The notes under the pieces were generated by a model, which saw only the letters and a list, made by a program, of their open reading frames with translations, was not told the DNA's origin and made no database searches. A program made the translations under genes and the position numbers. A stretch of 64,000 bases of DNA from Prauserella alba (lineage in GTDB: Bacteria; Actinomycetota; Actinomycetes; Mycobacteriales; Pseudonocardiaceae), in the NCBI RefSeq assembly GCF_024171735.1, contig NZ_JAMTCH010000003.1:856841-920840 (forward strand), in the 5' to 3' direction. Each line of letters begins with the position of its first letter. Position 1 is the stretch's first letter. This document shows positions 273 to 11,098 of this stretch, piece after piece.

Positions 273-298
273 CTACAGATACACGGCTACAGATACAC
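273..298. repeat. Short tandem duplication at the end of the TenA-like gene
   Basis: The 12-nt unit ctacagatacac occurs at 273-284 and again at 287-298, with a partial third copy just upstream (gtacac at 265-270). The second copy overlaps the stop codon of the TenA-like gene, so the Val-Tyr-Leu-stop ending is duplicated in the downstream DNA. This looks like a replication-slippage scar with no obvious function. Confidence 0.6.
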
Positions 299-919
299 CG
301 CGTCGTGGAAGGTGATCTCGGCGTCGAGCATTCCGGTGAACCATGCGGCGAGCCGGCCGTCGGGCACGTCGGCGGGAAGTTCGTCGACGGCCGCGCCGAG
401 TGCGTCGACGCCGGAGACGAACGGGTCACGGGCGTGCAGGGCGACCCAGTCGGCGATCGGCCCGGCGGGCGGTGTCCCGTCGCGGTGGGTGCGGGTGCAC
501 CAGGTCAGATACAGCGTCTCCGCGGCGAACATGACGGTGGTGACAGCCGCGTAGCCGCCGTCCTCGGCGACCGCGACGGCGTAGTCCGACAGCACCGAGG
601 CGGCGCGGCGCGCCGCCTCGGACACGTCCGCCGCGACCGGCCACGCCGCGCGCGCCGCCGTGAAGTACTCCGTCTGCTCGGTCGTCAGCCCGTGCAGCGC
701 CTCGGCGTTGCGGGTGACGGCTCGCCAGTGCGGTGCCTGCCAGGCGGCGAGCCCGTGCAGCCGAGCCGCGGTGTCGACGAATCCGGCTTCGAACTCCAGG
801 TACCGCGCGAATTCCGGGTCACCGATCGTGCCGTCGTGGACGTCCCGGACGAACCGCATGCCCGTCGCCCGTTCGAGCGCGGGCGTGCAGGTGCGCAGGA
901 GCCGGCGCGATCGGCTCAC
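287..919 (-). CDS. TenA-like (TENA/THI-4/PqqC fold) protein, probable TenA_E type
   Basis: The 210-residue product has the length and all-helical pattern of the TenA/thiaminase II family, whose members cleave C-N bonds of aminopyrimidines or related amines. It ends in the helix pattern typical of the family (MLDAEITFHDAVYL). Where classical TenA proteins carry the catalytic Cys-Trp, this one reads FAAETLYLTW, with Glu and no Cys. That resembles the TenA_E subgroup, whose substrates are less defined. The chosen GTG start at 919 overlaps the stop of the preceding gene (GTGA), implying translational coupling. It is the last gene of the LacI-linked gene series, so its substrate is probably a breakdown product of the imported compound rather than thiamine. 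Confidence is good for the fold and low for the substrate. Confidence 0.75.
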   Translation of the reverse strand: MSRSRRLLRTCTPALERATGMRFVRDVHDGTIGDPEFARYLEFEAGFVDTAARLHGLAAWQAPHWRAVTRNAEALHGLTTEQTEYFTAARAAWPVAADVSEAARRAASVLSDYAVAVAEDGGYAAVTTVMFAAETLYLTWCTRTHRDGTPPAGPIADWVALHARDPFVSGVDALGAAVDELPADVPDGRLAAWFTGMLDAEITFHDAVYL

Positions 920-1659
920 GCCGCGAGCCAGTCGATCAGGCCGCCGAACACGGCCGCGTAGCCCGGCCACTGTTCGCAGAACTCGGGCGGGGCCCAGTGC
1001 GGTGAGCAGTCGGAGGTGAACACGGCGGTGCGGCCGTCGCCGTAGCCGCCGACCGCGACGAGTGGGTCGTCGCCGATCGTGGCGAGGACGTCGGTGGCGG
1101 GCCGCGGGCGCACCCGGTTGTAGCCGAGCAGCCGCGGCCACTCGCCGCTCACCCCGCCGAGCGCCGGATGGTCGGCGACGACCCGCCCACGGGCACCCGC
1201 CGGCAGCTCCACCCGGTCGTCCTCGGGCAGCAGGTCCACCGGCAGCACCTCGTGCAGCACCGTGTTACGGTAGGCGGCCTTGGCCTCGAACCCGGTGAAC
1301 GACAGGTAGCCGCCCACCATCAGCAGGCCCCCGCCCGCGCCGACCCAGTCACGCAGCGCGGCGAGGCGGTCGCCACCGGGTCGTGCCCCTTCGAAGACCG
1401 ACGGCGCGAGCTGCACCGAGTTCGCGCCGATGTCGGACAGCACGACGGCGTCGTAGGCATCCAGCGCCGCCCGGTCGTCGGGGAAGTCCGACGGCACGAG
1501 GTGCGCGGGCAGGTGTACGACGTCGTGCCCGCGCGAGGTCAGTGCCGTCCGCAGCGGCGCGACACCCTCGACGTACGAACTCGTGACGAACGAGTCCACT
1601 CCTTTGATGTGCGTGGACTGCGTGATCCAGCTTTCACCTGCGATCAGTACTCGTGCCAC
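916..1659 (-). CDS. GATase1-like (PF07090-type) class I glutamine amidotransferase-like protein
   Basis: The 247-residue product starts ARVLIAGESWITQSTHIKG and continues SFVTSSYVEG, the signature of the family annotated as putative cytoplasmic glutamine amidotransferases (GATase1_like). The middle (WVGAGGGLLMVGGYLSFTG) and end (AAVFGGLIDWLAA) fit the Rossmann-like class I amidotransferase fold, but no canonical Cys-His-Glu triad is obvious. The true reaction is unknown. The GTG at 1659 was chosen because AAGGGAA lies about 8 nt upstream and because family members start exactly here. It follows the phosphotriesterase-like gene after a 98-nt gap, the only sizeable gap in this series, and it overlaps the TenA-like gene by 4 nt. 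Confidence 0.75.
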   Translation of the reverse strand: MARVLIAGESWITQSTHIKGVDSFVTSSYVEGVAPLRTALTSRGHDVVHLPAHLVPSDFPDDRAALDAYDAVVLSDIGANSVQLAPSVFEGARPGGDRLAALRDWVGAGGGLLMVGGYLSFTGFEAKAAYRNTVLHEVLPVDLLPEDDRVELPAGARGRVVADHPALGGVSGEWPRLLGYNRVRPRPATDVLATIGDDPLVAVGGYGDGRTAVFTSDCSPHWAPPEFCEQWPGYAAVFGGLIDWLAA

Positions 1660-1757
1660 GGAGAGGTTCCCTTCCTGGTTGCTGGTCGAGACCCCGGCTC
1701 GGGGATGCGGGGCCGGTGGTGAAACGTGATTCGGTGGGGATGCGGCGGGTGGGTGTC

Positions 1758-2798
1758 TCAGGCGCGCGCGGCGGCCTCGAACAGTCGTGCCGGGTTGGCA
1801 CGCAGCAGCGCCGACGTCACCTCGGCGGGCACACCGAGTTCGTGCAGTCGGGCCGTGAACAGCGTCGGCACGTACCGGAAACCGTTGCCGCCGTGTGCGG
1901 TGAGCATGCTCTTGAGGAACACGTCGTGGCTGAGCAGCAGCCGGTCGGCGAAGCCGTCGCCGATCAGCCCGGTGATCGCCCTGGCCGTGTCGGCCGGTGC
2001 GGGTGACTGGCCTTCCCCCGGGTAGCGGAACGGCATGCCGATCATGTCGAACTCCAGCCAGACGCCGCGCCGCGCGACGGACCGCTGGTACTCGGCGTCG
2101 TGGCCGGACGGGTCCATGTGGCACAGCACGACGGCGCCGGGCGCCGCGCCGACGTCGTCGAGGACGATGTCGAGTACCTCGTGGGCCCGGCGCTGCCATC
2201 CCGGCAGGTGCACGTACAGCGGGACGCCGGCTTCGCGCTGCGCGACGGCGGCGGCGCGCAGCGCGAGGCCTTCGGCGTCGGTGAAGGCGGGGGAGACGCC
2301 GATCTCACCGATCACTCCGGGGGAGATTCCCGAGGTGCCCGCGCCCGTCCGGAACTCGTCGAGCAGCGACGCCGCCAGCGTCTGTTCGTCCGTTGTGGAC
2401 AGGCCGGGTGGGTGGAACTTCTCCAGGTACCAACCCGATCCCATGACGATCCGCACTCCGGTGCGTACGGACAGCTCCTTGAGCGCCGACGGGTCCCTGC
2501 CCAGTCCCGGTGGGGTGACGTCGACGACCGTGCCGCCGCCCGCCGCGGCGAACGCCGCCAGATCGTCGGCCACCGGGCCCGGGTCGTCCAGCGTGCAGTG
2601 GTCACGGCACGCGTACGGCTCCTCGCGCAGCAGCCAGGCGATCTGCGGGCCTGTCTCGGCGTCGCGCAGCCACGCCAGCCCCGGATCGGCGGGCGGGCCG
2701 ACCGCCGCCCGCACGTCGTTGTGCAGATGCTCGTGGGTGAGGGTCAGCCCGAGGTCGGTGGCCGCGACCCTGCCGGTGACCGTGGTGACGGCGGTCAT
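1758..2798 (-). CDS. Phosphotriesterase-family metal-dependent hydrolase (lactonase-like)
   Basis: A 346-residue TIM-barrel protein of the phosphotriesterase (PTE) branch of the amidohydrolase superfamily. The HxH metal pair is at residues 22 and 24 (LTHEHLHND). A later His lies in VHLPGW, another in CHMDPS, and the terminal Asp in SHDVF. At the position of the bridging carboxylated Lys of bacterial PTE, the motif reads VIGEIGVS, so Glu would bridge the two metals as in the E. coli PTE-homology protein subgroup. Members of these branches hydrolyse lactones or esters more often than organophosphates. The ATG overlaps the stop of the permease gene (ACATGA), tying it to the importer operon. A role in opening a lactone or ester intermediate of the imported sugar is inferred. 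Confidence 0.85.
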   Translation of the reverse strand: MTAVTTVTGRVAATDLGLTLTHEHLHNDVRAAVGPPADPGLAWLRDAETGPQIAWLLREEPYACRDHCTLDDPGPVADDLAAFAAAGGGTVVDVTPPGLGRDPSALKELSVRTGVRIVMGSGWYLEKFHPPGLSTTDEQTLAASLLDEFRTGAGTSGISPGVIGEIGVSPAFTDAEGLALRAAAVAQREAGVPLYVHLPGWQRRAHEVLDIVLDDVGAAPGAVVLCHMDPSGHDAEYQRSVARRGVWLEFDMIGMPFRYPGEGQSPAPADTARAITGLIGDGFADRLLLSHDVFLKSMLTAHGGNGFRYVPTLFTARLHELGVPAEVTSALLRANPARLFEAAARA

Positions 2799-3817
2799 GT
2801 GCGCCGTGCCGTCAGGTGGGAGACCAGCTGGGCGAGCGACCGCCCGCGCAGGTTGATCCAGATCGCCGCGATCAGCACCAGGCCCGTCACGATCGGGGTG
2901 AGGAACGGGCTCACGCCCATCAGCGTCAGGCCGTTGGCGATCATGCCGGTGATCAGTGCGCCGATGACCGTGCCGACGATCGTGCCGCGGCCGCCGAACA
3001 GGTTCGTGCCGCCCAGCACCACGGCCGCGATGACGGTGAGCTCGAACCCCTCCGCCGCGTTCGCCGACCCCGAACCGAGCCGTGCCGCCGTGAGGATGCC
3101 TGCCGCTCCGGCGGCGAGGCCCGTCAGCATCAGGGTGATCATCTTGATGCGGCGCGTGTTCACGCCGGCACGGCGCACCGACTCCTCCTGTGCGCCGATG
3201 CCGTTGACGTAGCGGCCGAAGCGCATGCGTGACAACAGGATCCCGCCCGCGACGGTGGTCGCCAGCGCGATCCACGCCAGCGCCGAGAAGCCGAGGAACT
3301 CGGCCTCGCCGATCTTCGCGACGAACAGCCGCCGGTCGATCGGGACCGAGAAGCCTTCCGTCCACAGCAGAGCGAACCCTCGGATGATCGACATCGCCGC
3401 GAGGGTGACGATGAACGGCGGAATGTTCTGGTACGCAGACAGCCAGCCGTTGACCGAGCCCCAGAACAGGCCCGCCAGCAGGCCCACCACGATGACGAGC
3501 GACGAGTCCAGGCCCAGCTGCAGCAGCTCGGCCGTCATCGCCGCCACGAACGCGACGGTGGAGCCGACCGACAGGTCGATCTGCCCTGTCGTGATCACGA
3601 ACGTCATCGCGATCGCCACGATCAGCGTGATCGCCACCTGCGTCGCCAGATTCGACATGTTGCCGAACGTCAGGAAGTTCGGCGACGCCAGCCCGAACCC
3701 GATGAACAGTGCCACCGTGACGCCGAGCATCGCGACGGTCGCCTTGTTCACCCGTTCCCACCACGACGGCTGTGCCGCCAGGTCCCGCTGCGGCGGGGAC
3801 TCGACCTGCGTCGTCAT
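2795..3817 (-). CDS. CUT2-family sugar ABC transporter permease (RbsC-like)
   Basis: The 340-residue membrane protein has 8-10 hydrophobic segments and the characteristic sequence ITTGQIDLSVGS near residue 80, found in permeases of the ribose/xylose/AI-2 (CUT2) importers. A second hallmark, AVVLGGTNLFGGRGT near residue 270, is also present. It forms the membrane channel with the neighbouring ATPase and binding protein. The ATG overlaps the ATPase stop (GCATGA) and its own stop overlaps the next start. Only one permease gene is present, so the channel is probably a homodimer. Confidence 0.9.
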   Translation of the reverse strand: MTTQVESPPQRDLAAQPSWWERVNKATVAMLGVTVALFIGFGLASPNFLTFGNMSNLATQVAITLIVAIAMTFVITTGQIDLSVGSTVAFVAAMTAELLQLGLDSSLVIVVGLLAGLFWGSVNGWLSAYQNIPPFIVTLAAMSIIRGFALLWTEGFSVPIDRRLFVAKIGEAEFLGFSALAWIALATTVAGGILLSRMRFGRYVNGIGAQEESVRRAGVNTRRIKMITLMLTGLAAGAAGILTAARLGSGSANAAEGFELTVIAAVVLGGTNLFGGRGTIVGTVIGALITGMIANGLTLMGVSPFLTPIVTGLVLIAAIWINLRGRSLAQLVSHLTARRT

Positions 3818-4650
3818 GCGGCCTCCTCGGTCGTGGTGTTCGAGCGGGTGATCATCCCGACGAGCGTCTCGATGTCGAGGTCGGCGATCGCGGCGTCGTC
3901 GACGCTCCGCCCCTCGTACATGACGGTGATGCGGTCGCACACCTCGAACAGGTCCTGCAGCCGGTGGGTGATGAGGATGACGCCGACCCCGCGGGCCGCC
4001 ACCTCGCGGATCATGCGCAGCACCTGCCGCACCTCCGCGACCGCCAGCGCGGCCGTGGGCTCGTCGAGGATCAGCACCTTCGGCTGGAACGACACGGCGC
4101 GGGCGATCGCGACCGCCTGCCGCTGCCCGCCGGAGAGTTCGCCGATCTCCTGGTACGTCGAGCGCACCCGTACGTGCAATGTGGACAGCATCTCGGCTGC
4201 CTGACGGTGCATCTCGGCACGGTCGACGAACGGTCCCCGGCGTGGTTCCCGGCCGAGGAACAGGTTGCTGGCGACGTCGAGCGTGTCGCACAGGGCCAGG
4301 TCCTGATAGACGATGCCGATGTGCTCGGCGCGCGCGTCGGCCGGGCTGTGGAACCGGACCTGCCTGCCGCCCACGGTGATCGAGCCCGCGTCGTGCCGGA
4401 TCGCCCCTGCCAGGACCTTCATCAGCGTCGACTTTCCCGCGCCGTTGTCGCCGACGAGGCCGAGTACCTCGCCGGTGCCCAGCCGGAGGTCGACCCCGCG
4501 CAGCGATTGCACCGCGCCGAACGACTTCGTGATGCCCTCGAGCGTGACGAGCGTGTCGCCGCTCCGTCCATCACCGCTCCGTCCATCACCGCTCCGCCCA
4601 TCAACGACCTGCCCGTCACCGACCTGCGTGCCGCTGCTCTCGTGACTCAT
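3814..4650 (-). CDS. Sugar ABC transporter ATP-binding protein, single nucleotide-binding domain
   Basis: A 278-residue ATPase. After an unusual N-terminal tail of GDGRS repeats (about residues 11-32), the ABC domain begins at LVTLEGITKSFG. Walker A is GDNGAGKST near residue 68, the signature motif is LSGGQRQAVAIARA, Walker B is VLILDEPTAAL, and the switch His is in ITHRLQ. Many CUT2 ATPases carry two fused domains; this one has a single domain, like the FrcA-type group, so two copies would pair with the permease. It overlaps its neighbours by 4 nt on both sides. Confidence 0.9.
   Translation of the reverse strand: MSHESSGTQVGDGQVVDGRSGDGRSGDGRSGDTLVTLEGITKSFGAVQSLRGVDLRLGTGEVLGLVGDNGAGKSTLMKVLAGAIRHDAGSITVGGRQVRFHSPADARAEHIGIVYQDLALCDTLDVASNLFLGREPRRGPFVDRAEMHRQAAEMLSTLHVRVRSTYQEIGELSGGQRQAVAIARAVSFQPKVLILDEPTAALAVAEVRQVLRMIREVAARGVGVILITHRLQDLFEVCDRITVMYEGRSVDDAAIADLDIETLVGMITRSNTTTEEAA
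4560..4604. repeat. 15-bp tandem repeat (3 copies) inside the ABC ATPase gene
   Basis: The unit cgctccgtccatcac is repeated at 4560-4574 and 4575-4589, with a slightly changed third copy at 4590-4604. In the coding direction it encodes GDGRS-type pentapeptides in the N-terminal tail of the ATPase. The period is a multiple of three, so copy-number changes would keep the frame. Confidence 0.85.
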
Positions 4651-5660
4651 CCCCGCTCCAGGTAGTAGAGGTACTCGGACACGTTGTCCGGGGTGACGAT
4701 CTGGGTCGGCACCGGAATGTCGGCGGGCACGTCGCGTCCGCAGACCAGATCGATCGCCGCGTTCATCGACTGATAGCCGAACTCGAACGTGTTCTGCTGC
4801 ACGACACCCTTGATCCAGCCGGCGCGCAGCCCGTCGACCGCCTGTGCCGACAGGTCCCAGCCGACGACGTCGATGTCGTCGCTGCGCTGCTGGCTCGTCA
4901 CCGCAGCGGCGAGGCCGATGAGGGCGGGTTCGCCGGTCGCGTAGGCGTACGGCAGATCCGGGTTCCCGGTGAGCAGGTTCTCGGCCACCGTCTGCGCCTG
5001 CTCCTGGATGTTGCGACCGTCCACCACGTGCCGGATCGCCATGCCGCCCTCGGTCACGCGGTCGGTGAAGCCCTTCTGCCGTTGGAGCTGCACGGTGCTG
5101 TTGAGGGCGCCGACGATCCCGACGTCGCCCTCGCCGCCGCTGAGTTCGAGCAGTGCCTCGCCGAGCTGCTGGCCGCCCTCGGCGTTCGCCGTGCCCACCT
5201 GCGTCGAGACCGCCTTGTCGTCGACGACGGCGTCGACGGCGACCACCGGCACTCCCGCGGCGTCCGCCCTGCGGATCGCAGGCCGGATGCCGTCGGTGTC
5301 GACCGCGTCGACGATGATCGCGTCGAAGTCGTTCGCCACGAGGTTGTCGATCGCGTTCGCCTGCTTCTGCGAGTCGTCGTCACCGTTGACCACCTGCACG
5401 TCGGCGCCTGCCTGCTGTGCGACGTCCTCGGCGCCGGTGATGATCTGGTTGAAGAACAGTGCCTGCAGGTTGATCGGCACGATGCCGATCTTCGGCCGGC
5501 CGCCGTCGACCTCGCAGGATTCGACCACCTCGGCCGGCGGGGGCGGGCCCTGCTGTTGGGCCCGCGCCTCGGCCGCCATCTCCCGCCGTGCCGCGGTGTC
5601 GCAGGCGGTGGCCACGAGCAATGAGCCCAGTGCGGCGAGCGCGATCAGCTTGCGTCGCAT
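4647..5660 (-). CDS. Sugar-binding lipoprotein of the CUT2 ABC importer
   Basis: A 337-residue type I periplasmic-binding protein (Peripla_BP_4 group). It has a lipoprotein signal, with a basic start (MRRK), a hydrophobic core and lipobox VATAC with Cys20, so it is anchored to the outer face of the membrane. The mature part starts near KIGIVPINLQALFFNQI and contains the family patterns NGDDDSQKQANAIDNL and DAIIVDAVD. Sugar specificity cannot be read from the sequence. An AAGGAG ribosome site lies 8 nt before the ATG. The first 16 nt overlap the end of the kinase gene. Its stop overlaps the ATPase start. Confidence 0.9.
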   Translation of the reverse strand: MRRKLIALAALGSLLVATACDTAARREMAAEARAQQQGPPPPAEVVESCEVDGGRPKIGIVPINLQALFFNQIITGAEDVAQQAGADVQVVNGDDDSQKQANAIDNLVANDFDAIIVDAVDTDGIRPAIRRADAAGVPVVAVDAVVDDKAVSTQVGTANAEGGQQLGEALLELSGGEGDVGIVGALNSTVQLQRQKGFTDRVTEGGMAIRHVVDGRNIQEQAQTVAENLLTGNPDLPYAYATGEPALIGLAAAVTSQQRSDDIDVVGWDLSAQAVDGLRAGWIKGVVQQNTFEFGYQSMNAAIDLVCGRDVPADIPVPTQIVTPDNVSEYLYYLERG

Positions 5661-6568
5661 GGTGTTCGCTCCTTTCCGGGCGACCCGCTGTCCGGGCCGG
5701 ATCCGCCGGTGTCGAGACGGGACTGCACCGCGGCGCGGTGGGGGAGTCCGGCGCGCGCACCGGCGCGCGTGCAGGACAGTCCTGCGGCCACGGCCGCGAA
5801 CCGGGCGGCGCGTGCGGGTGGGGTGCCCCGTGCGAGTTCGGTGCAGTAGGCGCCGACGAAGCAGTCACCGGCGCCCGTCGAGTCCACAACGGACACCTCG
5901 ATCGGTGGGATCGACTCCGGCTGCCCTTGCGGCGGGATGAGCAGCGCCCCGCGGCCGCCGTCGGTGACGACCAGGTGGACGCCGTGTCGGCGGGCCAGCT
6001 GTGCGCAGGCGTCGTCGTCGCCGAGCAGTGCCGTCGCCTGGGAGCGCCCGAGCACGACGTGCTCCGCGGCGGTGAGCGCGGCGAGCGCCGCGGCCCGGGT
6101 CTCGCAGCCGTCGAGATCGACCACCACCCGGGTTGCCCTGTCCGGCAGGACCGAGGCGGCCTCGGGGAAGCGGTAGCCGTCCAGGTAGAGCCAGCCGCCG
6201 GCGGCCCGCCGGGCCGCTTCGGCGATGTCGGCGCCGTCGAGGTCGTCGTCCTGGCTGATGATCGATCGTTCGCCGTCCGGGGTGAGCAGCACGAGTGCGG
6301 TCGTCAGCTGTGCGTTCCGGCGGGTGGGGCTCACGTCGACGCCGTCGGCGGCGAGGGTGTCGAGGAAGGCCGTCGACAGGGCGTCCGTGCCGACGGCACC
6401 GGCGAACCGGGCGTCGGCGCCGAGCCGGGCGGCGGCCGCCGCGGCGTTGGCCGCCATGCCACCGTCGCCCCGCTCGACCGCCACGGCCTGGATCCGCTGC
6501 CCGGCGGCGGGCAGGGCAGGTACGGCGGCGGTGACGTCGCTGTTGGCGTACCCGCAGAACACGATCAC
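5645..6568 (-). CDS. PfkB/ribokinase-family carbohydrate kinase
   Basis: A 307-residue kinase. The N-terminal PfkB pattern is DGGMAANAAAAAARLGADARFAG in broken form near residue 34 onward, and the C-terminal signature DSTGAGDCFVGAY near residue 240 supplies the catalytic Asp and the anion hole. Members phosphorylate ribose, fructose, adenosine, tagatose-phosphate and similar substrates, and the substrate here is unknown. The GTG at 6568 overlaps the stop of the BtpA gene (GTGA). The C-terminal 16 nt run into the binding-protein gene. Its place between a BtpA-type enzyme and an importer suggests it phosphorylates the imported compound or a derivative. Confidence 0.85.
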   Translation of the reverse strand: MIVFCGYANSDVTAAVPALPAAGQRIQAVAVERGDGGMAANAAAAAARLGADARFAGAVGTDALSTAFLDTLAADGVDVSPTRRNAQLTTALVLLTPDGERSIISQDDDLDGADIAEAARRAAGGWLYLDGYRFPEAASVLPDRATRVVVDLDGCETRAAALAALTAAEHVVLGRSQATALLGDDDACAQLARRHGVHLVVTDGGRGALLIPPQGQPESIPPIEVSVVDSTGAGDCFVGAYCTELARGTPPARAARFAAVAAGLSCTRAGARAGLPHRAAVQSRLDTGGSGPDSGSPGKERTPCDAS

Positions 6569-7419
6569 GGCAGGACCGCGCCCGCCCGCTCGGCGGCCGT
6601 GGTCAGTTCGCGGACCTTGGCCGGATCGACGCGTCCCCACCAGCGGCCGTTGTCTTTCACCGACGAGGCCACGATGACGCCGTCGCAGGCGGGCAGTAGC
6701 TCGCCGATGTTGCCGGAGGTGATGCCGGAGCCGATGACGACGGGCAGGCTCGTGTGGTCCTTGATGCCGGCCACCTCGTCGACGGCGGCGGCGTCGCCGG
6801 TACGGGAGCCGGTGGCGATGAGCACGTCGGCGTCGAAGAACTCGGCGTCCTCGGTCTGTTCGGCGAGCGTTCGGTCGGCGACGATCGCGTGGGCGCCGTG
6901 CTTGACGTGGACGTCGGCGAACACCTTCACCGGGCCCGCGCCGATGCGGCTGCGATAGCGGGTGGCGTCGGCCGCCTGGCCTTCGATGATGCCCTCGTTG
7001 GCGACGTAGGCGTTGGCCCACTGGTTGACCCGCACGAATCCGCCGCCGCCGGACCACGCCGAGGCGATCGCGCACTCGGCGGCGTTGGACAGCACGCTCA
7101 CTCCGACGCTGCGGTCGGTCGCGTCCTGTACGGCGGCGGTGACGACGGCCATCGCGGCCGCCGTTTCGTAGCCGTGCCTGCCGGGTTTCGGGAACGGGAT
7201 GTCCCAGTGGTTCTCCACGATGACGCCGTGGCAGCCGCCGTCGAGGTACGTGCGGGCCTCGTCGACGGCGAACGAGCGGATGTCGGCCATCGGCGTCCCG
7301 GTGTAGTGCGGGCTGCCGGGCAGGGCGGGCAGGTGCACGACGCCGAGCACGACCTTGTCGGTGCCGAACAGTTCACGCAGTGCGTGCGGTTTGGGAGGGA
7401 AGACTCCGAGAGTGCTCAT
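6565..7419 (-). CDS. BtpA/SgcQ-family TIM-barrel protein
   Basis: The 284-residue product matches the BtpA family: the opening KVVLGVVHLPALPGSP, the central GVIVENHWDIPF, NQWANAYVANEGIIEG and the C-terminal VVIGSGITSGNIGELL. The family was named after a photosystem I biogenesis factor, but members such as SgcQ sit in sugar-utilisation operons and are presumed sugar-phosphate enzymes. It is the first gene of the LacI-linked operon, and its start lies about 131 nt downstream of the predicted start of transcription. The ATG at 7419 has only a weak ribosome site (AGAG). The chemical step is not known. Confidence 0.85.
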   Translation of the reverse strand: MSTLGVFPPKPHALRELFGTDKVVLGVVHLPALPGSPHYTGTPMADIRSFAVDEARTYLDGGCHGVIVENHWDIPFPKPGRHGYETAAAMAVVTAAVQDATDRSVGVSVLSNAAECAIASAWSGGGGFVRVNQWANAYVANEGIIEGQAADATRYRSRIGAGPVKVFADVHVKHGAHAIVADRTLAEQTEDAEFFDADVLIATGSRTGDAAAVDEVAGIKDHTSLPVVIGSGITSGNIGELLPACDGVIVASSVKDNGRWWGRVDPAKVRELTTAAERAGAVLP

Positions 7420-7527
7420 CTGTGCTCTCTGTGCTCGGTGGGGTGTCGGGAGGCGGGTTCGGCGAGCGCGGCGGTGCCGCGGCCGCCGACGGGTGTTCGG
7501 TCGCGGGAGGCGATGACTCCGGCGTGT

Positions 7528-7539
7528 GCAATCGATTGC
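7528..7539. promoter_or_regulatory. LacI-type operator (perfect palindrome GCAATCGATTGC)
   Basis: The 12-bp palindrome GCAATCGATTGC is a textbook LacI/GalR-family half-site pair with the central CG. It lies between the divergent lacI-type gene and the transport operon, a few bases downstream of the predicted transcription start of the operon, where binding would block RNA polymerase. A weaker half-match (aaacgattgca, 7652-7662) overlaps the TTG start of the regulator and could serve autoregulation. Confidence 0.8.
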
Positions 7540-7556
7540 CTGGCGAATTGCGGAGT

Positions 7557-7586
7557 AGGTTAGAGAGATGTTCGGTGAAAGGTCAA
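7557..7586 (-). promoter_or_regulatory. Probable sigma-A-type promoter of the sugar operon
   Basis: On the minus strand, TTGACC (7586-7581) is followed after 18 nt by TAACCT (7562-7557), a good -35/-10 pair for an actinobacterial housekeeping promoter. The LacI-type operator begins 17 nt beyond the -10, consistent with repression. This is inferred from sequence only. Confidence 0.55.
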
Positions 7587-7657
7587 TGGTTTAGCCTGGG
7601 ACGAGGCCAGGGGAACCGATTAAGTTCCGGTGTCACACCACGCGGAGAGGTAAACGA

Positions 7658-8671
7658 TTGCAGCGGGTAACGATCGCGGACGTCGCACGCCGCGCCGGTG
7701 TCTCGACGGCCACGGTCTCCCGTGCGCTGTCGGGCGGGCGCAAGGTCTCGGCCGACGTCGCCGACCGGGTCCGCGAGGCAGCCCAGGAACTCGGCTACGC
7801 GGTGAACCCCATCGCGCGCGCCCTGCGCGTGAGCCGTACCGACACCGTCGGCATGGTCGTGCCGAGCATCCGGAACCCCTTCTTCACCGCGCTGGTCGAG
7901 AGTGTGGAGCATGCGCTCGGCGCCGACGGCAAGGAACTGCTGCTCTGTGACGCCCAGTCCGACCCCGTCACGGAGGCCCGCCGCTTGGACGCCCTTGTGA
8001 CCCGCAACGTCGACGGCATCATCGTCAGCCCGTGTCACGGCACCGACAGCACCCCGGCGGTGCAGCGGACCGCCGAACGGCTGCCGCTCGTCCAGCTCGA
8101 CCGCTTCGTCGGCGGGACCAGTACCGACTGGGTCGGGGTGGACGACATCGCCGCGATGCGCGCGGTCGTGGAACACGTCCGTGAGGGCGGCGCGCGGTCG
8201 GCGGCATACCTCGGCGCCCGGCTCACCAATTCCTCGAGCGAACTCCGTCACGCCGGATTCCTTCGCCACGCCGAGGAACTCGACCTCGAAACCGGACCAC
8301 AGTGGACGCTCCTCGGCGACTACAGCGTGGAATGGGGCGAACGCGCGGTGGGCCTGCTCGCCGACTCCGGGCGACTACCGGAGGCCCTCGTGTGCGCCGA
8401 CGACCTGATCGCGCTCGGCGCAGTGCGTGCCTGCCGTACCCGTGGCATCACGGTGCCCGACCGGATGCAGGTCACCGGGTTCGACAACATCGAGTTCACC
8501 CGGCTCGCCGAGCCGCCGCTGACCACCGTGGACCAGCCGACCCGGCGGATCGCCGACGAGGCGGTGCGGCTGCTGGCCGATGCCGCGGGCGACGGGCCTG
8601 CGGCGCGCGACGCCGCACACGTCGCGCTGGTGCCGAAGCTCGTCGTCCGGGACAGCACCCGCACGGGCTGA
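7658..8671 (+). CDS. LacI-family transcriptional regulator of the sugar operon
   Basis: The 337-residue regulator has an N-terminal helix-turn-helix (TIADVARRAGVSTATVSRALSG, given here as its core AGVSTATVSRALSG), the hinge region (LGYAVNPIARALR) and a C-terminal periplasmic-binding-like effector domain (MVVPSIRNPFF, DGIIVSPC, TGFDNIEF). It is expected to repress the divergent operon until the imported sugar or a phosphate derivative binds. The start is TTG at 7658, where family members begin, with GGAGAGG 8 nt upstream. It is transcribed away from the BtpA-led operon, with the perfect operator in the shared intergenic space. Confidence 0.9.
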   Translation: MQRVTIADVARRAGVSTATVSRALSGGRKVSADVADRVREAAQELGYAVNPIARALRVSRTDTVGMVVPSIRNPFFTALVESVEHALGADGKELLLCDAQSDPVTEARRLDALVTRNVDGIIVSPCHGTDSTPAVQRTAERLPLVQLDRFVGGTSTDWVGVDDIAAMRAVVEHVREGGARSAAYLGARLTNSSSELRHAGFLRHAEELDLETGPQWTLLGDYSVEWGERAVGLLADSGRLPEALVCADDLIALGAVRACRTRGITVPDRMQVTGFDNIEFTRLAEPPLTTVDQPTRRIADEAVRLLADAAGDGPAARDAAHVALVPKLVVRDSTRTG

Positions 8672-9188: not shown

Positions 9189-10427
9189 GTGGTCGCGCAG
9201 CTCGGGCAGACGACGGACCCGAAACAGCTCATTCCGGGGGAGCCGGAGCAGATCGCCGCGGATCTGCGGGGAATCGTCGGCAACCTCGGCACCGTCGGCG
9301 AGGTCGGCGGACTGTTGGGGCAGATTGATCCGCAGAACTGGACCGGTGACGCGAGCACCGCGTTCCGGGACGTGTTCTCCGCCGAACCGCCGAGGTGGAC
9401 GGAACTGGTCGACACCGTCGCCAGGGGTGGGCAGACGCTCGCGGACTTCGCCGACGTGCTGGCCTGGGGGCAGCGCGAGGCGCAGCGCGCGATCGAGCTG
9501 CACACCCAGGCCCAGGCGGCCGGCCGCGCCGCGATGGCACAGCACCAGGTGCACGCCGCGGCAGGCGCGCCGGCGCAGCAGGCCGACCCCGGCGGCGGAC
9601 TACTGGCCGAGGCACAGGCCGTGCTCGACAACGCCCGGCAACGGGTCGACGCGGTCGGTGCGCAGCTGGCGTCGAAGCTCGGCCTTCAACCCGACGGGCA
9701 GGGCGGCTACGGCCGCGAACACGAGCGGATCCACGAACGACGGACGGACCGGTCCTGGGGCGGTTCGCAGGGACTCAAGGAGGACCCCGTCGCGCGGCTG
9801 GTCGACACGCTCGGTATCGGACTGCCCAGTGCGAGCGCGCAGGCCGAAGCAGGCGTGAGTGTCGCCGAGGGCGAGCTCGGTGGCGAGTTCGACCACGGCC
9901 CGCTCGCGGGGCGGGGAACACTCGGCGGATCCGTGCTCGGGGCGAGCGCAGGCGCCGACGCGTCGGCCGATCTCACCGGCGTGTCGGCGGGCGCGGGTGC
10001 CGAGGCGCACGCTGCGCGGGGCAGTGCCGAGGGCGGACTCGACTTCGGTCCGCTCGGCGTGAACGGCCAGGCCAACGCCGCGGTCGAGGCCACGGCGAAC
10101 GCGAACGCCGACGTCGGGCTGACCGGTATCGATGCGGCCGCCGACGCGTTCGCCGGGGCACGGGCGGACGTCGGGGCCGGTGTCGAGATCGCCGGTATCG
10201 GGGCGGGTGTCAACGCCGAGGGCTGGGCGGGCGCGGGTGCCGAGGCCGGGCTGCAGTTCGGCATGGGCGAGGACGGCAAGTTCCACGTCGGAGGCGATCT
10301 CGGCCTCGGAGCAGGACTCGGCGGCAAACTCGGTGGCGGGATCACGGTCGATCCGGGCCAGCTCACCGAGTCCGTCACCGGAGCGGCCGACACCGTCGGC
10401 TCGATGGTGCGCGACCTGGGCTGGTGA
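9189..10427 (+). CDS. Putative type VII-secreted protein with Ala/Gly-rich C-terminal region
   Basis: The 412-residue product begins with a WXG-like helical bundle (about 1-180) containing the turn NWTGDAST near residue 51, typical of the large T7SS-secreted proteins of Actinomycetota. A charged linker (residues 175-200) follows. The rest (about 215-400) is a low-complexity domain of recurring AGADASADLTG, AGAGAEAHAARG and NANADVGLTGID-type units. It resembles the repetitive passenger of some actinobacterial surface proteins, and no toxin motif is visible. The GTG directly follows the TAG of the EspC-like gene, and the stop overlaps the start of the LpqN-like gene. Export through an ESX system encoded elsewhere is inferred. 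Confidence 0.65.
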   Translation: MVAQLGQTTDPKQLIPGEPEQIAADLRGIVGNLGTVGEVGGLLGQIDPQNWTGDASTAFRDVFSAEPPRWTELVDTVARGGQTLADFADVLAWGQREAQRAIELHTQAQAAGRAAMAQHQVHAAAGAPAQQADPGGGLLAEAQAVLDNARQRVDAVGAQLASKLGLQPDGQGGYGREHERIHERRTDRSWGGSQGLKEDPVARLVDTLGIGLPSASAQAEAGVSVAEGELGGEFDHGPLAGRGTLGGSVLGASAGADASADLTGVSAGAGAEAHAARGSAEGGLDFGPLGVNGQANAAVEATANANADVGLTGIDAAADAFAGARADVGAGVEIAGIGAGVNAEGWAGAGAEAGLQFGMGEDGKFHVGGDLGLGAGLGGKLGGGITVDPGQLTESVTGAADTVGSMVRDLGW

Positions 10428-11098
10428 CGATGCTGCCCGTTCCGATCGAGTTCACGCTGCCCGACGGTTGGCGCTCCGTGCCACCGGAACGGACCGGCGC
10501 ACCGGACGTGGAGTTCCTCGCGGTGCACCCAGGGTCGAGCGCGGGTTTCACCGCGACGATCGCCGTGACCGGCCGGGTGCGCGAGGACGGGGCGGGCCTC
10601 GACGAACTCGCCGACGAGTCCGCGCGGAGCCTGGCAGAGCACGCCGTGGCCGTGAAGGTCGGCAGGCGCGAACGGTCCGGCGACGAGACGAGCGGCAGCC
10701 TGACGCAGGCCCTCGGCCTGCGGGTACGGACCGGTGGCGAGCTCACCGATCTGGCGCAGCTGCGGACGTTCCTCACGGTCCCCGAACGCACGGGTACCGG
10801 CCGACTGCTCGTCGTCGACGTCGTGCTGACGGCCACGCCCACCCAACTGGCCGAACTGATCGCCGACTTCCAGGCGTTCGTCGGCGGCATCCGGCCGGAC
10901 CTGTCGGGTTCGCGCAGGCGTCCTGCCCCGCCCCGGCCACCGGAAGGGACAGCTCATCCGCAGACACCGCATCCACAGACGCCGCACCCACAAGCACCGC
11001 ATCCACAGGCGCCGCATGCACGGGCACGGCCACCGGCGCCGCGGCTGCCGCCGCACTCGCCGCCGCGGCGGCCGGGCAGGCATCGCAGGGAACCGTGA
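10424..11098 (+). CDS. LpqN/DUF1795-like protein of the T7SS module, with a possibly frameshifted tail
   Basis: Residues 1-165 (from IEFTLPDGWRSVPPE to FQAFVGGIRPDL) match the alpha/beta LpqN-like fold often found in actinobacterial type VII loci; there is no signal peptide. The GTG at 10424 overlaps the preceding stop (GTGA); an ATG at 10430 is an alternative. The last 60 residues are His-Pro-Gln repeats (PHPQTPHPQAPHP) with poor third-position GC. The -1 frame of the same stretch, open to 11115, gives an Ala/Thr/Ser-rich tail ending SQGTVTGGVA with much better codon statistics. A one-base deletion near 10900-10925 or a sequencing error may have swapped the tail. Fold assignment is moderate. 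Confidence 0.6.
   Translation: MTMLPVPIEFTLPDGWRSVPPERTGAPDVEFLAVHPGSSAGFTATIAVTGRVREDGAGLDELADESARSLAEHAVAVKVGRRERSGDETSGSLTQALGLRVRTGGELTDLAQLRTFLTVPERTGTGRLLVVDVVLTATPTQLAELIADFQAFVGGIRPDLSGSRRRPAPPRPPEGTAHPQTPHPQTPHPQAPHPQAPHARARPPAPRLPPHSPPRRPGRHRREP

Follow-up and report, generated by a model that had tools for sequence, protein, structure and literature searches.

Locus organization and gene families

The DNA analyzed here is a 64,000 nt stretch of Prauserella alba (assembly GCF_024171735.1, contig NZ_JAMTCH010000003.1, positions 856,841 to 920,840), referred to below as the window. At its left end, eight minus-strand genes run from position 7419 down to 287 and face away from a lacI-type gene, as placed in an earlier note made from the letters alone, which proposed that they form an undescribed catabolic operon. 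Proteins were assigned to families from matches to Pfam and NCBIfam models, using the cut-offs of those models. The first gene (6565-7419) encodes a predicted TIM barrel enzyme of the BtpA/SgcQ family, scoring above the cut-offs for that family (PF03437, E-value: 7e-66, 223 bits, cut-off 30; TIGR00259, 195 bits, cut-off 153). It is followed by a gene for a PfkB-family kinase (5645-6568; PF00294, E-value: 6e-39) that carries GGMAAN instead of the GGKGAN of the ribokinase type and is proposed to be a riboside 5'-kinase. The next three genes encode a substrate-binding lipoprotein (SBP; 4647-5660; Peripla_BP_4, PF13407, E-value: 9e-50) with a lipobox read from the sequence, an ATPase (3814-4650; ABC_tran, E-value: 4e-33) and a permease (2795-3817; BPD_transp_2, PF02653, E-value: 8e-43). 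These are followed by genes for a PTE-family binuclear metal hydrolase with a Glu bridge (1758-2798; PF02126, E-value: 2e-46), which is proposed to be an amide hydrolase, a GATase1-like protein lacking the nucleophile cysteine (916-1659; PF07090, E-value: 9e-92, 307.6 bits) and a TenA_E-like protein (287-919; TENA_THI-4, PF03070, E-value: 1.4e-4), a putative amide or C-N hydrolase. Every family named in the earlier note was matched by Pfam, with the TENA_THI-4 match alone being marginal (22.2 bits, cut-off 22).

The arrangement of these genes is compact. The six from BtpA to PTE overlap by 4 nt each (16 nt in the case of PfkB and SBP), and after a 98-nt gap (1660-1757) the GATase1-like and TenA-like genes are coupled by a further 4-nt overlap. 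The predicted start codons are ATG for BtpA (7419), GTG for PfkB (6568), ATG for the importer and PTE genes (5660, 4650, 3817 and 2798) and GTG for the last two genes (1659 and 919). The importer has the SBP, permease and ATPase of a CUT2 system, with the ATPase being in a single-domain form: it has one ABC_tran match in 278 aa, compared to approximately 500 positions in the matched CUT2 models. This feature was not mentioned in the earlier note, and the neighbours of the ATPase are otherwise CUT2-like. The LacI-family regulator (7658-8671, plus strand; PF00356 and Peripla_BP_3, PF13377) is predicted to start with TTG. Its best NCBIfam relatives are PurR, GntR, RbsR and CytR, each far under its cut-off.

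Conservation of the gene set and operator

To sample relatives of the locus, the genome_contigs collection (84,980 species) was scanned with a seven-row BtpA alignment and the best 80 of at least 574 relatives were mapped. As these are the most similar relatives, they are biased to actinobacteria and some are closely related to one another; the nearest named loci are from Prauserella species. The order LacI (divergent), BtpA, PfkB, SBP, ATPase, permease, PTE, GATase1-like, TenA is identical to that of the window in 46 of the 80 loci, and PfkB, SBP, ATPase, permease, PTE and GATase1-like genes are all found within 9 kb of BtpA in 51. PfkB alone is kept in 71. Among the 58 loci flanked by 7 kb or more on each side, 42 had all six partner genes. 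In a survey of the genus, the full nine-gene set was present in five of seven genomes, including that of the window, while the other two lacked BtpA. Because the exact order recurs in 46 of 80 loci and the genes co-occur within the genus, we consider the nine genes to be a genuine unit.

Rearranged forms of the set are found well outside of the actinobacteria. Plasmids of Rhizobium leguminosarum, R. johnstonii 3841, Paracoccus and Pantoea carry it with TenA (and, in Pantoea, also with an M20 hydrolase), plasmids of Aureimonas, Pararhizobium, Agrobacterium vitis and S. meliloti M162 carry it with M20 and without TenA, and Salinibacillus (Bacillota, locus L102) has it with M20. The importer type varies among relatives and may be CUT2, MFS (PF07690), DMT, oligopeptide-type or another ABC system. 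The genes thus stay together across phyla, which bears out the proposal of an undescribed LacI-linked catabolic operon and rules out the possibility, raised in the earlier note as one that would overturn it, that they are adjacent only by coincidence.

The putative LacI operator was examined in the same loci. The palindrome GCAATCGATTGC (7528-7539), between the BtpA gene and the divergent lacI, is the sole match in the 64-kb window at up to one mismatch, with a chance expectation of 0.12. In the 46 homologous intergenic regions with the exact gene order, it was found with at most one mismatch in 41 and with at most two in all 46, while 920 base shuffles of these regions gave zero and seven matches, respectively. 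The operator predicted in the earlier note is therefore both present and kept in relatives. A divergent LacI regulator and a conserved palindromic site fit what would be expected for a LacI-controlled catabolic operon of the CUT2 type. The operon is real and conserved across phyla, and it is of the inducible import-and-catabolism type.

A second architecture was observed in seven loci (L068, L069, L071, L073, L075, L078 and L019), in which PfkB, a GntR/UTRA regulator, a second PfkB, BtpA, TenA and an MFS transporter are grouped. No PTE, GATase1-like or CUT2 match adjoins these genes; the MFS and GntR assignments were confirmed by Pfam in L069 and L019.

In Klebsiella pneumoniae plasmid pEBSI041-2, typed as a conjugative IncL/M plasmid, a permease-PTE-GATase1-like-M20 fragment is flanked by IS26 copies (L129, 6123-15555). 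For the S. meliloti M162 cluster (L111), the 30 matches given by megablast against the plasmid collection included no further Sinorhizobium record. The S. meliloti tag SMb20484, considered as a possible lead to induction data, was dropped because the available part of PMC4961836 assigns it to psicose.

Exchange of BtpA and PfkB for a nucleoside hydrolase and ribokinase

As the BtpA-anchored sample is biased, whole-genome draws were also searched using the GATase1-like protein (alignment A2) as the anchor. Matches were found in 5 of 198 genomes from the window's phylum, 13 of 149 from one class of that phylum (with two genomes shared between these draws), 13 of 348 from Bacillota (the phylum of Salinibacillus) and 13 of 349 from Pseudomonadota (the phylum of Phyllobacterium; 16 places). 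Of the 45 distinct places, 43 were mapped; the count omits the locus of the window itself and that of genome G388 (taken as L102), whose maps both show BtpA and lack a nucleoside hydrolase.

Within 7 kb of the anchor, BtpA was present in nine of the 43 loci, a nucleoside hydrolase in 19 and the two together in none; PTE was present in 21. Among these 21 PTE-bearing loci, 12 have a nucleoside hydrolase, six have BtpA and three have neither (one of the three being cut). By draw, nucleoside hydrolase genes were found in 0/2 loci from the window's phylum, 12/13 from the class, 6/12 from Bacillota and 1/16 from Pseudomonadota. The pattern is clearest in the class, where in 11 of 13 loci the order M20-LacI/SBP-ATPase-permease-PTE-GATase1-like is continued by genes for a nucleoside hydrolase (PF01156) and a PfkB resembling ribokinase. 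With respect to the other two, the part of L143 held by its contig agrees with this order and L148 ends within the GATase1-like gene. The hydrolase of L124 scores 331.9 bits against PF01156, and the kinase of this class scores 278 bits against the TIGR02152 ribokinase model (cut-off 300). In Bacillota, GATase1-like, M20 and nucleoside hydrolase genes occur together in 6 of 12 loci (359 bits to PF01156 in L151). Plasmids of Rhodococcus WAY2 and Arthrobacter crystallopoietes, representing further lineages, carry GATase1-like and nucleoside hydrolase genes with a ribokinase.

Only one of the 80 BtpA-anchored loci has a nucleoside hydrolase within 9 kb (L040, approximately 8 kb away). No PF01156 gene is present in the window; the window genome carries two elsewhere in 5.6 Mb, corresponding to approximately 0.005 expected per 15 kb, a thin background as it comes from one genome and others may carry more. 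"Nucleoside-like" was one of several guesses made for the substrate in the earlier note. With nucleoside hydrolase and ribokinase replacing BtpA and PfkB in relatives, it is now the best supported of these.

The kinases differ along with their partners. The lysine of GGKGAN contacts ribose in ribokinase, and this motif was found in 18/18 kinases adjoining a nucleoside hydrolase, while GGM[AGT]AN was found in 44 of 91 kinases adjoining BtpA. The window PfkB falls short of each specific model tested: ribokinase (TIGR02152, 127 bits, cut-off 300), pseudouridine kinase (27.7 bits, cut-off 540) and fructoselysine 6-kinase (36 bits, cut-off 247). The SBP scores 73 bits against RbsB (cut-off 337) and the permease 198 bits against the ribose permease (cut-off 398), such that kinase, binding protein and permease are all below the ribose (rbs) equivalog cut-offs. 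The nearest solved chain to the SBP is 5hsg (240 bits, with the runner-up at 90 bits).

The BtpA enzyme

Cyanobacterial BtpA takes its name from photosystem I biogenesis (as in the name of model NF045918), and to our knowledge no reaction is known for it. A literature search (in which many matches were to the acronym only) gave no enzymatic reaction for the BtpA/SgcQ or PF07090 families. An AlphaFold2 (AF2) model of the window BtpA (pLDDT 91.6) has Foldseek neighbours that are mostly phosphate-binding barrels. Thiamine phosphate synthase is the top match, and others include indole-3-glycerol phosphate synthase (IGPS), TrpA, HisF, ribulose-phosphate epimerase, hexulose-phosphate synthase and TenI. 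Weak sequence matches map to the same C-terminal region. These fold neighbours mostly act on phosphorylated compounds. Ten polar residues (E69, D73, N112, R130, E142, D169, H171, K173, D198 and K255) are invariant in 101/101 close homologues; in a wider set (n=36, including three distant members), R130 and D198 remain invariant and the other eight are conserved at 90% or more.

In L095 (8865-12915), BtpA (10001-10819) is followed by genes for eIF2B/ribose-1,5-bisphosphate-isomerase-like and SIS-domain proteins. The protein encoded upstream of BtpA at this locus is matched by no Pfam or NCBIfam model, and L174 (4169-5383) encodes a likewise unassigned one that looks similar by eye.

The hydrolases and the GATase1-like protein

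In the PTE-like protein, residues H22, H24, E165, H197, H227 and D292 are conserved in 87/87 sequences (window included). In the alignment, they correspond one-to-one to the metal ligands of PTER (H26, H28, E169, H201, H230 and D298), an N-acetyltaurine and N-acetyl-beta-alanine hydrolase, as given in the available parts of PMC11374699 and PMC13311154. The earlier note had taken the Glu metal bridge as a sign of lactone or ester opening. The bridge is not specific to such reactions: an amide hydrolase has the identical ligand set. PTER R204 and R233, named as docking contacts with the substrate in the same excerpts, are replaced by W201 (at least 97% conserved) and P230 (87/87). Because the metal centre is kept while these two positions are replaced, the window protein is predicted to have an amidase-type metal centre and a different pocket. 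Its nearest solved chains are 3k2g and 3rhg, followed by PTER (9efa).

TenA_E proteins are defined by replacement of the active-site Cys together with a neighbouring Glu. A profile of four homologues of the window TenA-like protein matches the solved TenA-like chain 1z72 (E-value: 2.8e-23), and alignment with 3ibx places Ala-Glu where H. pylori thiaminase has Cys-Gly. A132 is found in at least 97% of homologues and E133 in 59/59 (numbered without the start residue). The window protein would therefore fit TenA_E, as the earlier note had named it. The gene is not universal, however: 26 of 80 BtpA-anchored loci have no TenA match, nor does any of the 43 GATase1-like-anchored loci within 7 kb of the anchor.

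M20 hydrolases are frequent companions of the set. In the 80 BtpA-anchored loci, both TenA and M20 are present in 37, TenA only in 17 and M20 only in six; in the 43 GATase1-like-anchored loci, M20 or M42 proteins are present in 35 (M20 in 34 and M42 in one). Three M20 subfamilies were found among the proteins tested: a hydantoinase/carbamoylase type (TIGR01879, over the cut-off in L023), a TIGR01891 amidohydrolase type (over the cut-off in L098) and an ArgE/DapE deacylase type (TIGR01910, over the cut-off in L149, L151 and L170 and below it in L040, L027 and L175). L126 and the sgc operon of E. coli have M42 proteins. Since differing amide hydrolases occupy the same place, the substrate is suggested to contain an amide, ureido or N-acyl bond.

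The GATase1-like protein belongs to PF07090, in agreement with the earlier note, but this family's usual label of glutamine amidotransferase is not appropriate here. A cysteine at the nucleophile elbow was found in 0/90 homologues; 81 have the motif GG-Y-x-S and the remaining nine also lack Cys. Without the catalytic cysteine, the protein is not a glutamine amidotransferase. The top Foldseek matches of its AF2 model (pLDDT 97.1) are STM3548 (2gk3) and STM1381 (3soz), followed by 3rht and then by GH42 galactosidases and ThuA-like proteins.

Distant GATase1-like genes occur in other contexts. In L159 (9052-13905) and L160 (9123-17792), they are found with CUT2-type transporter genes, M20 and a gene over the cut-off of a threonine synthase model; L159 also has threonine ammonia-lyase-like, Rid-like and aldehyde ferredoxin oxidoreductase-like genes, all below cut-offs. 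Arthrobacter crystallopoietes pLDW-10 (L132) and a Rhodococcus rhodochrous BX2 plasmid (L133) each carry a GATase1-like gene in a cluster with LacI, a ribokinase or PfkB kinase, phosphoribosyl pyrophosphate (PRPP) synthetase, nicotinate phosphoribosyltransferase, HAD phosphatase, LLM oxidoreductase, amidohydrolase and tautomerase genes, with a nucleoside hydrolase in the L132 cluster. These two clusters presumably serve ribosylation-dependent degradation of an N-heterocycle, which would be another N-ribosyl pathway.

Proposed pathway and alternatives

We propose that the window encodes a LacI-controlled operon that imports and degrades a nucleoside-like (N-ribosyl) compound, the aglycone of which contains one or more amide, ureido or N-acyl bonds, a reading to which we give a probability of approximately 0.55. 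Judging from its family, the CUT2 importer would bring the compound into the cell, where PfkB may phosphorylate the ribosyl 5'-OH. BtpA would then split the phosphorylated sugar from the aglycone, releasing a pentose 5-phosphate for central metabolism. Both the fold of BtpA and the exchange for a nucleoside hydrolase and ribokinase suggest the cleavage role, and kinase action before cleavage is suggested by the resemblance of that fold to phosphate-binding barrels. The simplest account of the exchange would be that BtpA and PfkB do to a phosphorylated substrate what nucleoside hydrolase and ribokinase do to a free one, with both pairs yielding pentose 5-phosphate and aglycone. Based on families and recurrence, dismantling of the amide-bearing aglycone would fall to the PTE-like and TenA_E-like proteins, joined in relatives by M20/M42 hydrolases. 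The cysteine-less GATase1-like protein may act near the sugar-aglycone chemistry.

Several observations weigh against this proposal. Both BtpA and a nucleoside hydrolase are missing from 15 of the 43 loci in the GATase1-like draws (11 of these 15 have an amidase), and the 12 exchange loci belong to one lineage and count as one event. The Bacillota loci and plasmids L028 and L132 represent other lineages but are without PTE. The idea that the Bacillota importers are of a nucleoside type was dropped, as the only one tested (L151) is nearest to B6 transporter models, below their cut-offs, and not to a nucleoside model. Among kinases adjoining BtpA, 24 of 91 keep GGK and 23 have no motif by the rule used. 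In Streptomyces, in Sciscionella and in a genome from the same family as that of the window, BtpA is found with TenA and two PfkB genes (and MFS in the named loci), with no PTE or GATase1-like match, and the E. coli sgcQ operon has a phosphotransferase system (PTS) and no nucleoside gene. Finally, neither TenA nor M20 is present in 20 of 80 BtpA-anchored loci, several of which are ended by contig ends, and the window's own cluster is without M20.

An unlikely but substantive alternative is that the substrate is a sugar-amino acid adduct (an Amadori compound or glycosylamine), with PfkB acting like fructoselysine 6-kinase, BtpA as a deglycase or isomerase and the amidases freeing the amino acid. 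It draws on the Ti plasmid pTiA47a, where a distant GATase1-like gene lies with genes for fructoselysine 6-kinase, SIS and oxoprolinase A/B proteins in what looks like Amadori-opine catabolism, an arrangement that also weighs against an N-ribosyl substrate, although the protein is only 36% identical. The eIF2B-like and SIS proteins beside BtpA in L095, a KdsD/GutQ-like SIS protein in L153 and the amino-acid deacylase type of the amidases point the same way, as do IGPS and TrpA among the BtpA fold neighbours and a very weak profile match to phosphoribosylanthranilate isomerase (E-value: 0.03). On the other hand, the recurrent alternative to BtpA is a nucleoside hydrolase (19/43 GATase1-like loci), and the window PfkB scores only 36 bits against the fructoselysine 6-kinase cut-off of 247. 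That the PTE-like protein opens a phosphorylated or amino sugar in its lactone or ester form, a route suggested in the earlier note, whose interpretation is supported in part, is very unlikely. The PTE family does include phospho-furanose lactonases, and in L029 an MBL protein annotated as belonging to the N-acyl homoserine lactonase family adjoins the GATase1-like gene. The match to the lactonase model is nevertheless weak (NF045706, 37.6 bits, cut-off 630), the amidase PTER shares the metal-ligand set (PMC13311154, in the part available) and M20/M42 amidases accompany 35/43 loci.

Salvage of a thiamine-like pyrimidine, with TenA_E and M20 as deformylase and aminohydrolase and BtpA as a ThiE-type barrel, has a precedent for these hydrolase roles in the YlmB/TenA pairing. 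TenA-like genes are present in 54/80 BtpA-anchored loci, and thiamine phosphate synthase and TenI are among the structural neighbours of BtpA. We consider this highly improbable, as a sugar-type importer, LacI, ribokinase and nucleoside hydrolase do not suit such a pathway, TenA is missing from 26/80 BtpA and 43/43 GATase1-like loci, and the M20 members match ArgE/DapE, carbamoylase or aminoacylase models. A plain ribose or xylose operon with the other genes adjacent by coincidence would account for a CUT2 importer and a ribokinase-family kinase, and RikA, the kinase of a related Salmonella locus, is a ribose kinase (PMC13432705, available in part); with the nine-gene order exact in 46/80 loci and the same set in other phyla, this can practically be dismissed.

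A bolder form of the N-ribosyl proposal is that BtpA/SgcQ proteins are a new family cleaving 5'-phosphorylated ribosides, and that the operon is a general salvage system for amino-acid-bearing modified ribonucleosides from RNA turnover, such as N6-threonylcarbamoyladenosine. In this scheme, the carbamoyl or acyl link to the amino acid would be hydrolysed by M20, PTE and TenA, with the ribose being released by BtpA or nucleoside hydrolase. We regard this as quite unlikely; the sole pointer to threonine is the threonine synthase match, over the cut-off in both distant loci L159 and L160, together with the threonine ammonia-lyase-like and Rid-like genes of L159, which are below their cut-offs. 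A dihydrouridine route, with ring opening by PTE and M20 as a ureidase, is a candidate only. No dihydropyrimidinase-type gene was seen in the readable part of the listings for PTE-less Bacillota loci, for which no family search was made.

BtpA/SgcQ and the PF07090 "glutamine amidotransferases" are widespread families, and their annotation becomes a testable question through the exchange after a conserved core, which gives BtpA a concrete role to test and PF07090 a conserved place. If the N-ribosyl proposal is correct, actinobacteria, rhizobia, Pantoea and others would use a nucleoside-like nutrient, and the automatic names of at least two families would be corrected.

Relationship to known systems

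In the literature library searched, the gene set is undescribed, save for a four-gene relative in Salmonella. STM3547-STM3550 comprises rikA, a GATase1-like gene, a DMT transporter gene and a PTE gene (PMC13432705). In the available part of that report, which is our only source for the locus, RikA phosphorylates ribose well and the authors suspect that the locus serves another, unidentified carbon source. Like the window, it brings together a PfkB kinase, a GATase1-like protein (STM3548 being the nearest fold to that of the window) and a PTE-like protein; unlike the window, its four genes include no BtpA, TenA or CUT2, with a DMT transporter instead.

The E. coli sgc operon (sgcX, sgcB, sgcC, sgcQ, sgcA and sgcE) shares with the window a BtpA-family enzyme (SgcQ, 26% identical) and a phosphorylating step, and has an M42 protein. 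It differs in having a PTS in place of an ABC importer and PfkB, in having an epimerase and in lacking PTE, GATase1-like and TenA genes.

The PsuK/PsuG pathway is similar in logic only. There, a kinase acts first and 5'-phosphorylated pseudouridine is then converted to ribose 5-phosphate and base (PMC9247573, available in part), in the same way that a PfkB kinase is proposed to precede phospho-nucleoside cleavage here. In contrast, BtpA is a TIM barrel of the ribulose-phosphate-binding type, no PsuG-family match was found by Pfam among the nine window proteins and the proposed aglycone enzymes have no counterpart in PsuK/PsuG. The Rih/RbsK routes are represented in relatives by the nucleoside hydrolase and ribokinase pair that takes the place of BtpA and PfkB after the same core; the window differs from them in having no nucleoside hydrolase and in its GGMAAN kinase motif. 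PTER resembles the PTE-like protein in its family and metal ligands, including Glu, and differs from it at the two pocket positions described above.

With respect to the annotation of the E. coli K-12 sgc genes (L112, 2107-7652), RefSeq labels SgcQ a "putative nucleoside triphosphatase" and SgcX a "putative endoglucanase with Zn-dependent exopeptidase domain"; SgcQ aligns with BtpA, and SgcX matches Peptidase_M42.

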